From: Rhodococcus sp. SGAir0479
Lineage (GTDB): Bacteria; Actinomycetota; Actinomycetes; Mycobacteriales; Mycobacteriaceae
Length of the DNA: 64,000 nt
NCBI RefSeq assembly: GCF_005484805.1
Contig: NZ_CP039432.1
Coordinates: 2,666,001 to 2,730,000, forward strand
Direction: 5' to 3'
Shown here: in pieces, positions 17,562 to 44,713 of the stretch
Layout of the letters: every line of letters starts with the position of its first letter
Numbering within the stretch: position 1 is the first letter of the stretch
Program-made: the position numbers and the translations under genes
Notes under the pieces: model-generated
Databases searched by the model: none
Seen by the model: only the letters and a program-made list of their open reading frames with translations
Told to the model about the DNA's origin: nothing

Positions 17562-18308
<747 letters not shown>

Positions 18309-40831: not shown

Positions 40832-42070
40832 CTACCGCGACAGCAACGCGCGCAGTCCCCGTCGCTTCCTCGACGCCGCGATTGCGGAGCCGAGCCCGCG
40901 CCGCCGGCCGGTGGCCGGATCGATGCTCGCGGTGGTGTTGCCCCCGAACTTGCGCTCCGACGCCGTCTCGGGCGCATCGTCCGCAGTGTCCTTGAGGTAC
41001 TTGTTCGGCAGCGACAACTTGGCGATGGTGCGCCACGCCTTGGCGTACTGCACCGGCAACGGCCCGGTCGTGTACGGCAGGTCGTACTTCTCACACAGGG
41101 CGCGCACCTTGACGGCGATCTCGGCGTACCGGTTCGACGGCAGGTCCGGGTAGATGTGGTGCTCGATCTGGTAGCTGAGGTTGCCGGTCATGAAGTCCAT
41201 GACGGGACCGCCGGAGATGTTGGCGCTACCGAGCATCTGCCGCAGATACCACTCCGCGTGCGTCTCCTTCTCGACGTCCGCCTTGGTGAACTTCTCGGCA
41301 CCGTCCGGGAAATGGCCGCAGAAGATCACCGCGTTGGTCCACAGGTTTCGGATGACGTTCGCGGTCGCGTTGGCCGTCATCGTCGACTTCCACGCCTTAC
41401 CGGTGAGCGCCGGGTACACCACGTAGTCCTTGGCGACCTGCTTGCCGATCTTCTCGCCGACCTCGCGCAGCCTGCGCTTGGTCTCGGCGCGATCGTCGCG
41501 ACCCTTGGCCACCTTGCCGAGCTCGAGGTGCTGGATGGCGACGCCGTACTGGAACAGCAACGCCAGCAGCGCGTTGTACGCCAGGTTGCCGTAGTTGAAG
41601 GGCTGCCACCGCTGGTCGCGGGTGACGCGCAGCAGGCCGTAGCCCACGTCGTCGTCCATGCCCAGGATGTTGGTGTACTTGTGGTGCAGGTAGTTGTGGG
41701 TCTGCTTCCAGTGGGCCGACGGGTCGACGTTGTCCCACTCCCAGTTGGCCGAGTGGACCTCCGGATCGTTCATCCAGTCCCACTGCCCGTGCATCACGTT
41801 GTGCCCGAGTTCCATGTTCTCGATGATCTTCGCGACACCCAGCATGCCGGTGCCGAGCCACCACAACGAGCGCTTGCGACTGCCGAACAGCACCGCGCGG
41901 CCCCCGATCTCCAGCCCCCGCTGCAGTCGGATGGTGTTGCGGATGTAGCGCGCGTCGCGCTCACCCCGGGACTCCTCGACATCACGGCGGATGGCGTCGA
42001 GTTCGCGTCCGAGCGCCTCGACATCGGCATCCGTCAGATGCGCGTACTCCTTGATGTCTGTAATCGCCAC
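40832..42070 (-). CDS. Membrane acyl-CoA desaturase, DesA3-like (copy 1)
   Basis: The 412-residue protein is a front- or delta-9-type membrane fatty-acid desaturase with three histidine boxes: HNVMH at 90-94, HNYLHH at 125-130, and QIEHH at 301-305, plus an extra histidine in CGHFPDG at 253. Hydrophobic segments lie between the boxes; no cytochrome b5 domain is present, so electrons come from a separate reductase, most likely the one at 43521. It matches Rv3229c. The GTG start at 42070 is only 4 bases from a palindromic operator, suggesting a leaderless transcript. It lies 56 bp after copy 2. Confidence 0.94.
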   Translation of the reverse strand: MAITDIKEYAHLTDADVEALGRELDAIRRDVEESRGERDARYIRNTIRLQRGLEIGGRAVLFGSRKRSLWWLGTGMLGVAKIIENMELGHNVMHGQWDWMNDPEVHSANWEWDNVDPSAHWKQTHNYLHHKYTNILGMDDDVGYGLLRVTRDQRWQPFNYGNLAYNALLALLFQYGVAIQHLELGKVAKGRDDRAETKRRLREVGEKIGKQVAKDYVVYPALTGKAWKSTMTANATANVIRNLWTNAVIFCGHFPDGAEKFTKADVEKETHAEWYLRQMLGSANISGGPVMDFMTGNLSYQIEHHIYPDLPSNRYAEIAVKVRALCEKYDLPYTTGPLPVQYAKAWRTIAKLSLPNKYLKDTADDAPETASERKFGGNTTASIDPATGRRRGLGSAIAASRKRRGLRALLSR

Positions 42071-42073
42071 GGG

Positions 42074-42105
42074 CCCTACCGTACCGTAAGTTACGACACC
42101 GTAGG
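42074..42105. promoter_or_regulatory. Operator A, at the start of desaturase copy 1
   Basis: This 32-bp site is built on the palindrome CGTAA-G-TTACG (42085-42095) and flanked by CCGTAGG and CCCTACCG arms. On the minus strand it begins CCTACGGTG. It matches operator B (44682-44713) at 26 of 32 positions. It ends 4 bases before the GTG start, so a bound repressor would cover the promoter. A TetR-type regulator is likely. The sequence TACGGT lies about 7 to 14 bases before the start and may be the -10 element. Confidence 0.75.
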
Positions 42106-42126
42106 TTAAGTCCACGTTACTGTGGG

Positions 42127-43398
42127 TCAGATCACTTCCGCCGGCCGTCGGCCCGCTCGGCGCCGCTGCACCCGTGCGTCGGCGTGCGCGCGCAGCGCCG
42201 ACAGGAGCCCCCGCCGGCGTCCGGTGTCGGGGTCGACCCGCAGCGCCTCCCCGATCCGGGAGCCGGTGGCGTCGAACTTGCGCTCGGACGAGGTCTCGGG
42301 AGCGTCGTGGGAGGTGCGTTTCAGCAGACGGTCCGGCAGGGCGAGCTTGTGGATGGTGCGCAGCGCGAGCAGGTACTGCCGGCTGAGCGGTCCGGTGGTG
42401 TACGGCAGGTCGTACTTGTCGCACAGCGCCCGCACCCGCACCGCCATCTCCGGGTACCGGTTCGACGGCAGATCGGGGAACAGGTGGTGCTCGATCTGGT
42501 AGCTCAGGTTGCCGGTCAGGAAACCCATCACCGGGCCGGCGTCGATGTTGGCGCTGCCGAGCATCTGCCGCAGGTACCACTGCGCGCGGGTCTCGGTCTC
42601 GAACTGCTCGGCGGTGAACTTCTCGGCGCCGTCCGGGAAGTGCCCGCAGAAGATCACCGCGTACGCCCACAGGTTGCGCACCAGGTTGGCCGTCGCGTTC
42701 GCGGTCAGCGTGTGCTTCCACGCCCGGCCCGTCAGCGCCGGGAACAGTACGAAGTCCTTGCCGACCTGACGCGCGATCTTGATCGCGAATTCCTTGTTGG
42801 GAGCCGAATTCCACTGCATCGGGTCGACGCCCTCGAGCACCTTCTGCGCCTTGAGGTCGTGCAGCGCGATGCCCCACTCGAACCCGGCCGCGAGGATCAC
42901 GTTCGCGACGGGCTGGAGCAGGTTGATCGGACGCCACTTCTCGTCCCGCGTCATCCGCAGGATCCCGAATCCCACGTCGTCGTCCATCCCGACGATGTTG
43001 GTGTAGGTGTGGTGCGAATAGTTGTGGGCGCGTTTCCAGTGCTCCGACGGCCCGGTCTGATCCCACTCCCAGGTGGTGGAGTGGATCTCCGGATCGTTCA
43101 TCCAGTCCCACTGCCCGTGCATCACGTTGTGCCCGAGTTCCATGTTCTCGATGATCTTGGCGAGCGAGAGCATCGCCGTGCCCGCGACCCATGCGGGCCG
43201 GCGGCGGCTGCCGAAGAGCACTGCGCGCCCGCCGAGTTCGAGGGAGCGTTGCAGCCGGATCACCCGCCGGATGTAGCGGGCGTCGCGGTGCCCCCGCGAC
43301 TCCTCGACGTCACGGCGGATCTCGTCCAGTTCACGGCCGAGGGCTTCGATGTCGTTGTCGGTGAGGTGAGCGAACTCGTTGATGTCGGTGATGGCCAC
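42127..43398 (-). CDS. Membrane acyl-CoA desaturase, DesA3-like (copy 2)
   Basis: The 423-residue protein is a tandem paralogue of the next gene, with the same three histidine boxes (HNVMH, HNYSHH, QIEHH) and the CGHFPDG motif. Identity with copy 1 is high in the box regions and lower in the middle loop, where copy 2 has a longer insert (KAQKVLEGVDPMQWNSAP). This may alter chain-length or position preference. The start is GTG at 43398. It is not preceded by the palindromic operator seen at copy 1, so expression may differ. It lies 122 bp after the reductase gene on the same strand. Confidence 0.92.
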   Translation of the reverse strand: MAITDINEFAHLTDNDIEALGRELDEIRRDVEESRGHRDARYIRRVIRLQRSLELGGRAVLFGSRRRPAWVAGTAMLSLAKIIENMELGHNVMHGQWDWMNDPEIHSTTWEWDQTGPSEHWKRAHNYSHHTYTNIVGMDDDVGFGILRMTRDEKWRPINLLQPVANVILAAGFEWGIALHDLKAQKVLEGVDPMQWNSAPNKEFAIKIARQVGKDFVLFPALTGRAWKHTLTANATANLVRNLWAYAVIFCGHFPDGAEKFTAEQFETETRAQWYLRQMLGSANIDAGPVMGFLTGNLSYQIEHHLFPDLPSNRYPEMAVRVRALCDKYDLPYTTGPLSRQYLLALRTIHKLALPDRLLKRTSHDAPETSSERKFDATGSRIGEALRVDPDTGRRRGLLSALRAHADARVQRRRAGRRPAEVI

Positions 43399-43520
43399 CG
43401 AGTGGTCCTCCGTCGGGATAGATCAGTTCGCCGGCGTCCACCGACGCGAGGCGTTACCTGCGCAACGATACGGGAAAACGGACACCCGGCGGCCGGACGG
43501 ATACCGAGGTCACACCGGAG

Positions 43521-44636
43521 TCACACGTCGAGGGTGCAGTCTCCTGCGGCCGCGGAGATGCACGTCTGGATGCGTTCGCCCTCGGAATGTTCCTTGCCGT
43601 TGCGCAGATCCACCGCGTGGCCCGACGCCAGCGGCACCACGCACGTCTGACAGATCCCCATGCGGCAACCGAACGGCATGAGCACGCCGGCCTTCTCCCC
43701 GGCCTCGAGCAACGTGGTCGCGCCGTCGGCCTCGACGGCCTTGCCGGCGCGCCCGAAGGTGACGGTGCCGCCCGCGCCGGACAGATCCGCACGCGAGACG
43801 GCGAACCGCTCCAGGTGCAGGCGCGGCGCGATGCCCTCGCGCTCCCACGTCTGTTCGATCTCGTCGAGCATCGCGAGCGGACCACAGGCCCACGTCTGCC
43901 GCTCCCGCCAGTCCGGGCACACCTCGTCGAGCGAGGCGAGCTCGAACTTGCCCTGCGAACGCGTGTGCCGGACGTGGCACCGCAGCGACGGGTGCGCCGC
44001 GCTCAGCCGTTCGAGCTCGTCGGCGAACATCACGGCGTCCTCGGTGGGGGCCGAGTGCACGTGCACGACGTCGGGCAGGTCGCCGCGGCGGTCCATCGTC
44101 CGCAGCATCGACATGACCGGGGTGATACCGCTGCCCGCGGTGAGGAACAGGATCTTCTCGGGGGGCGGCTCCGGCAGCGCGAAGTTCCCGGTGGGCGCCG
44201 CCAGCCGCACGACCGTGCCGGACGGGACCCCGGTGACCAGGTGACTGGACAGGAAACCCTCGGGCATCGCCTTGACGGTGATCGAGATCAGCCGGTGGTC
44301 GACGTTGGGCGCCGACGTGAGCGAGTACGACCGCCAGTGCCAGCGCCCCTCGACGGGGATACCGATGCCGATGTACTGGCCCGGCTGGTAATCGAAGTCG
44401 AAGCCCCATCCCGGCTTGATGACGAGCGTGGCCGAGTCGGCCGTCTCGGGGCGGACCTCGACGATCCGGCCGCGCAACTCCCGCGCCGACCACAGGGGGT
44501 TGACCAGATGCAGGTAGTCGTCGGGGAGCAGCGGCGTCGTCAACCGGGTGACCGCGCCGCGCACCAGGTTCGCCACGGACCGGTTCGAGCCCGCGACCCT
44601 CGCCGCCGGCGCCTCGATCCAGCTCTTCAGTCCCAT
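43521..44636 (-). CDS. Ferredoxin-NADP(+)-reductase-type oxidoreductase for the desaturases (Rv3230c-like)
   Basis: The 371-residue protein joins an FAD/NAD(P)H reductase ([10 protein letters not shown] flavin motif, and [16 protein letters not shown] with the NADPH loop) to a C-terminal plant-type 2Fe-2S ferredoxin with cysteines in [15 protein letters not shown] and a last cysteine in IQTCISAA. It matches Rv3230c, which supplies electrons to DesA3 in mycobacteria. The ATG at 44636 has GGAGG 4 bases upstream; the start at 44678 is rejected. Operator B lies 46 to 77 bases before the start. It is probably the electron source for both desaturases. Confidence 0.93.
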
Positions 44637-44681
44637 CCGACCTCCATCTCGCTCCGTACCCCCGCCAGCGTAGGGCATGTG

Positions 44682-44713
44682 CCTACGGTGCCGTAAGTTA
44701 CGGCCGGGTAGTG
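44682..44713. promoter_or_regulatory. Operator B, upstream of the desaturase reductase
   Basis: The site begins CCTACGGTG and contains the perfect palindrome CCGTAA-G-TTACGG at 44691-44703. It matches operator A at 26 of 32 positions, in the opposite orientation to its gene. It lies 46 bases before the reductase ATG. Occurrence of the same site at two promoters of one pathway supports a shared repressor. Confidence 0.78.

Follow-up and report, generated by a model that had tools for sequence, protein, structure and literature searches.

A putative 20-bp operator of a membrane-unsaturation regulon at a desaturase–reductase locus of Rhodococcus sp. SGAir0479 and its relatives

Results

Genes and sites at the desaturase–reductase locus

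We analysed a stretch of 64,000 nucleotides from Rhodococcus sp. SGAir0479 (assembly GCF_005484805.1, contig NZ_CP039432.1, positions 2,666,001 to 2,730,000), called the window below, in which two similar short sites precede a membrane fatty-acid desaturase gene and the gene of an Rv3230c-like electron donor. Sequence comparison suggests that these sites, A (42074–42105) and B (44682–44713), are probably operators that belong to a membrane-unsaturation regulon shared by much of the family. The genes of the locus all lie on the reverse strand. Desaturase copy 1 (40832–42070) is DesA3-like, begins with GTG and matches Pfam FA_desaturase. Copy 2 (42127–43398), also recognized by a profile match, is a membrane fatty-acid desaturase directly downstream of the reductase. 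The reductase (43521–44636) is an oxidoreductase in which domain profiles identify FAD, NAD and 2Fe-2S domains, and it shares 91% identity with its counterpart in Prescottella agglutinans. Its mechanically called open reading frame (ORF) starts at 44678; alignments to 80 relatives begin at query residues 1–18, mostly 10–17, and the conserved start is at 44636. The two desaturases and the reductase resemble the DesA3–Rv3230c pair of M. tuberculosis described in PMC9861118.

A preliminary description of the sequence had reported A and B as near-identical. Indeed, the reverse complement of A agrees with B at 26 of 32 bases, whereas a direct comparison gives at most 24 of 32, and that with a shift of one base. 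Because the better match needs the reverse complement, the two sites face in opposite directions, and CCTACGGTG is found on one flank in A and on the other in B. The distances to the genes were also given correctly: 3 bases separate site A from the GTG at 42070, and site B starts 46 bases upstream of the conserved start of the reductase. The core that had been singled out, CGTAANTTACG, is rare in its exact form, occurring at two places in the 4,974,457-base genome, which are A and B themselves, and at none when the pattern is reversed. With mismatches allowed, this 13-mer alone does not stand out. Three mismatches gave 9 matches in the window (10.9 expected), and two mismatches gave 42 matches in the whole genome versus 48 with the reversed control. 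The core alone is therefore weak, and the signal resides in the longer site.

Comparison of sites from 80 records and 29 further loci defined the operator unit as a 20-bp palindrome, AASYTACG-N4-CGTARSTT; the core is where two such copies overlap. We rejected the 13-mer as an operator because it is merely the zone in which the two units of site A overlap and because it is at chance level with mismatches. Unit 1 of site A (42088–42107, reverse strand, AACCTACGGTGTCGTAACTT) matches the palindrome exactly. Unit 2 (42073–42092, reverse strand, AACTTACGGTACGGTAGGGC) has three mismatches, scores 18.3 bits and overlaps unit 1 by 5 bp, giving a pitch of 15 bp. Only 2 bp separate its end from the start codon, and site A therefore probably overlaps or follows the promoter. 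Site B contains one strong unit (44680–44699, reverse strand, AACTTACGGCACCGTAGGCA), which has two mismatches and lies 43 bases upstream of the conserved start of the reductase. A matrix scan of the window found three units above 6 bits and no others, two at A (32.1 and 18.3) and one at B (20.2); in 20 base-shuffled windows no unit exceeded 15 bits. The scoring matrix derives from exact-pattern sites in relatives, some of which belong to genera that were later scored with it. A scan of the region for sigma-70-type promoters found none (0.2 expected). Terminator-like sites, one of them between the reductase and copy 2, were no more frequent than chance (2 found, 1.5 expected).

Copy 2 lacks a site, as had been stated: no unit precedes it in the window (best score about −4). 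We scored 79 places of each gene, taken from 80 loci of relatives. A unit above 8 bits precedes copy 1 in 76 of 79 and the reductase in 75 of 79, and copy 2 has one in 9 and is without its own site in 70. These copy 2 units (13–16 bits) lie just past the end of the reductase gene, near 6150 in L043, L046, L047, L049, L050, L053, L054 and L055 and near 4252 in L056. In 79 of 80 loci the next desaturase gene after the reductase is copy 2, at a distance of 25–285 bp (122 bp here), and this gene may be carried on the transcript that site B would control. Given this position and the possible shared transcript, the earlier suggestion that only one desaturase is switched on does not follow.

The palindrome recurs before a small set of genes

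Across 121 genomes of the family the exact 20-bp pattern gave 197 matches, versus 3 for the reversed pattern, and 95 of the 121 have at least one. We read 74 distinct sites out of the 197, two of them from the SGAir0479 genome and two being overlapping units of one promoter (L197). All but one (73/74) precede genes of five kinds: DesA3-like desaturase, reductase, TrhA/HlyIII, acyl-ACP desaturase and PlsC-like acyltransferase. Copy-1-type desaturases account for 28 sites (27 promoters), HlyIII for 20, of which 18 are also shared with an isoprenyl synthase, the reductase for 14, acyl-ACP desaturases for six and PlsC for five. The remaining site (L220:1438, in G019) is an exact unit about 310 bp before a biotin-carboxylase-like ORF. 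A separate reading of 29 loci from 40 genomes with the 13-mer placed 26 at the desaturase–reductase region. The exact 13-mer in L110 was set aside as probably due to chance, since its neighbours are unrelated and the outer half-sites are lacking.

The same kinds of target are found in the SGAir0479 genome. Exact units lie 69 bases before an acyl-ACP desaturase gene (C1:109229) and 47 bases before a gene for a PlsC-type acyltransferase (C1:3117278). A double unit with a 15-bp pitch (C1:500080–500114; two and one mismatches, 20.3 and 29.0 bits) lies 39 bases from the HlyIII/TrhA gene and about 90 bases from an isoprenyl synthase gene. The target proteins were identified by the profiles FA_desaturase_2, Acyltransferase, HlyIII and TrhA, and Prenyltransf. 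The TrhA model scores 157 bits on the HlyIII protein (cut-off 80). Among solved structures, DesA2 (1za0) comes closest to the acyl-ACP desaturase, and a short-chain Z-isoprenyl synthetase (2vg1) comes closest to the isoprenyl synthase. Sites A and B are real and part of a larger system than the preliminary description stated. The regulator proposed there, dedicated to one desaturase and its reductase, is not borne out, since the same unit precedes the acyl-ACP desaturase, PlsC and HlyIII genes.

With up to three mismatches the 20-bp pattern is not enriched in this genome (34 matches versus 77 in the control), and of the matches with three mismatches we took only unit 2 of site A as a member. 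Three matches with two mismatches were not counted: C1:3080234 lies inside a tRNA-Tyr gene, and C1:2554554 and C1:3462078 belong to other palindromes. The last of these (C1:3462078–3462097, L153) is a long palindrome, TTGAACTTACTCCAGAGTAAGTTCAA, between divergent thiolase-like and SDR (FabG-like) genes, named by inspection. It looks like the operator of a different lipid regulator.

The number of units differs with the target. A second unit 15 bp away accompanies 28 of 28 desaturase sites, but only four of 45 exact sites elsewhere (HlyIII 1/20, reductase 2/14, acyl-ACP desaturase 1/6, PlsC 0/5). The HlyIII gene of SGAir0479, which falls outside the 1/20 count, is an exception in having two inexact units 15 bp apart.

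A TetR gene beside mfd is the best candidate regulator

The preliminary description had proposed a TetR-type repressor of lipid unsaturation and had seen no regulator gene nearby. The latter holds: among the TetR matches listed, none lies from window position 17,885 to beyond the window end. The TetR gene at 17568–18308 of the window (forward strand), about 24 kb from site A, encodes the FasR orthologue, which we do not think reads the sites. The former stands in part, in that the sites are operator-like, a TetR-type repressor is the strongest candidate and the target genes have to do with lipid unsaturation.

Our candidate gene (C1:461067–461654) lies directly upstream of mfd (in L174, TetR at 309–896 and the mfd ORF from 976), the position of M. 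tuberculosis Rv1019. According to the title of a cited study, Rv1019 is said to regulate Rv3230c–Rv3229c negatively. It also regulates mfd, according to a review (PMC9579286). The candidate carries a TetR_N domain (57 bits, cut-off 24), and its closest solved structure is M. tuberculosis FasR (6o6n, E 4e-26). It is present as a single copy (E <1e-30) in 114 of the 121 genomes, in some relatives further from mfd.

All 95 genomes with an exact site have the mfd-linked TetR, as do 19 of the 26 without one (Fisher p 1e-5, uncorrected for kinship). The seven in which it was not found (G004, G007, G014, G028, G035, G037 and G087) all lack an exact site. Twenty of the 26 genomes have a desaturase match, and 30 loci of these were read. 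Good inexact operators at the desaturase or reductase accompany the TetR in G051, G018, G067, G050, G024 and G080 (21–26 bits) and in G031 (17–19 bits). G007 and G037, from one genus, and G028, from another, lack the TetR and keep the desaturase and reductase, and their upstream scores are at background (−19 to −1). No TetR match lies beside mfd in G007, G037 or G004; in G028 the place is taken by an unrelated TetR (L386:918–1607, 32% identity). The recognition helix of the mfd-linked TetR, VSKPVVYEHFGGK, is nearly invariant in 58 rows (G043 appearing twice). An E to G change in it occurs in G017 and G043, both of which have the TetR but no operator at the desaturase; this is a hint from two genomes that the helix change may be tied to operator loss.

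A number of observations weigh against the mfd-linked TetR, including three given below with the rivals they favour. Operators are weak (5–8 bits) despite the TetR in G063, G020 and G046. In G017, G011, G043, G054, G033 and G071 the TetR is present and the desaturase read has no operator above background; the desaturase matches of G043, G033, G071 and G054 are distant (46–56% identity), and the score in G054, 2.7 bits, is just over the 95% point of shuffled sequence (0.2). The joint loss of TetR and operator rests on three genomes of two genera, and two further desaturase genes of G028 fell outside the upstream scoring. In G014 the TetR was not found, yet a 17.5-bit site precedes the desaturase, with none before the reductase; this assembly is 66% complete. 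Finally, none of 30 mfd loci has an exact unit, despite the regulation of mfd reported for Rv1019, and half-sites around the TetR gene are absent in L290, L293 and L296 and limited to a single, unpaired one in L295. We therefore rejected autoregulation of the mfd-linked TetR.

Other possible readers of the sites

It is unlikely that a different regulator of equal phyletic spread, TetR or other, reads the sites. Of the 99 TetR_N matches in the SGAir0479 genome, we profiled one across the family. Two genomes of genus g2 (L125 and L126) have a different TetR gene that points away from the acyl-ACP desaturase gene, and the site lies between the two genes. That protein was rejected as the general regulator, its best match in SGAir0479 having 30% identity and no close counterpart being found there. 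In both loci the acyl-ACP desaturase gene is followed by a thioesterase-like gene, as judged by inspection. A TetR gene near the HlyIII site of SGAir0479 was likewise rejected, as it has no match in the other loci of L190–L259, though some of these loci may end short.

FasR, the closest paralogue, appears a poor candidate in its turn, and we think it quite unlikely to read the sites. Its gene lies in the same window, its recognition helix is similar to VSKPVVYEHF, and FasR responds to acyl-CoA and binds lipid-gene DNA (PMC7382501). Moreover, no FasR gene turned up in the 120 kb read of the operator-less G007 and G037, so G028 alone separates the two candidates. G028, however, keeps FasR (79% identity, about 14 kb from its desaturase) and shows no operator upstream of the desaturase and reductase genes that were read; FasR therefore does not explain the sites. 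The DNA of the FasR co-crystal scores −26 with the operator matrix, and FasR of M. tuberculosis is described as an activator of fas–acpS (PMC7382501). The mfd-linked TetR itself scores 107 bits against NCBIfam FasR NF053731, below the equivalog cut-off of 330.

MadR (the Rv0472c type), a repressor of mycobacterial acyl-ACP desaturases, is a very improbable reader. Acyl-ACP desaturases are among the target kinds and MadR responds to acyl-CoA, but by inspection its consensus, TCTGTGxxxxxxxGT, is unlike AASYTACG-N4-CGTARSTT, and deletion of madR in M. smegmatis did not up-regulate desA3 (for MadR, PMC8872791). We give virtually no credence to the idea that A and B resemble each other by chance or as a remnant of local duplication, which the chance-level count of the 13-mer at three mismatches in the window might suggest, since the position is kept across many genera, matches outnumber the control 197 to 3, and 73 of 74 read sites stand at the same gene kinds.

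Discussion

We consider it probable that sites A and B are operators of a family-wide membrane-unsaturation regulon and that their 20-bp palindrome is bound by the mfd-linked, Rv1019-type TetR, a view that draws on comparative sequence data. In our model each palindrome would bind one dimer. The units, mostly within about 100 bp of start codons, would block RNA polymerase. FasR, the paralogue, loses its hold on DNA in the presence of acyl-CoA of C16 or longer (PMC7382501), and by analogy a long-chain acyl-CoA is the probable ligand here. Promoters of the reductase, TrhA/HlyIII, acyl-ACP desaturase and PlsC genes mostly have a single unit and would take one dimer each. At the desaturase promoter the 15-bp pitch corresponds to about 1.4 helical turns, so that two dimers would sit on nearly opposite faces of the DNA, and we infer that they could repress more tightly or co-operatively.

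If the model is correct, a little-studied TetR that is present in most genomes of the family gains a probable operator and a short, testable list of targets. TrhA, a PAQR protein, would then be tied to the control of unsaturated fat in two bacterial groups instead of one, a point relevant to the role of bacterial PAQR proteins. The arrangement also suggests a way for a repressor to grade its response, by placing one or two operator units at a promoter.

Comparison with known systems

Rv1019 and its targets Rv3230c–Rv3229c share with the present system a TetR gene beside mfd and the same target pair, as far as the title of that study goes. Beyond the claim in that title, our analysis adds an operator that recurs across the family, its double form with a 15-bp pitch, and three further kinds of target, TrhA, acyl-ACP desaturase and PlsC. 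The operator, the regulon and the architecture look new, whereas the link between regulator and desaturase looks to be already known. Our searches of open-licence papers turned up no description of the operator or the regulon; the published Rv1019 study may already report a motif.

DesT of Pseudomonas aeruginosa, also a TetR protein, represses an acyl-CoA desaturase together with its oxidoreductase and senses the saturation of acyl-CoA. In contrast to the present system, its gene adjoins the target and its regulon is smaller. FasR (Rv3208) is the closest solved relative of the mfd-linked TetR and has a similar recognition helix, but it has another DNA site and gene target and is present in the operator-less G028 (for the genes read). 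MadR (Rv0472c) is, like the proposed regulator, a desaturase regulator that senses acyl-CoA, but differs in its consensus and in that its deletion does not raise desA3 (PMC8872791).

The layout described here, in which one kind of putative operator precedes both desaturase and HlyIII/TrhA genes, is like that of the E. coli FabR regulon. The mfd-linked TetR scores 27.4 bits against NCBIfam FabR NF008402, far below the cut-off of 151. FabR is TetR kin, in agreement with this weak match. FabR represses unsaturated fatty-acid genes and also controls trhA/yqfA, but its targets include fabA and fabB, whereas here they are desaturases (for FabR, PMC9017321). The likeness to the FabR regulon looks convergent. 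We regard as evenly balanced the broader proposal that the present regulon arose independently of it, that the Rv1019-type TetR couples desaturation, electron supply, phospholipid acylation and the PAQR protein TrhA, and that the number of units is set by the target, so that the desaturase would answer acyl-CoA more sharply.

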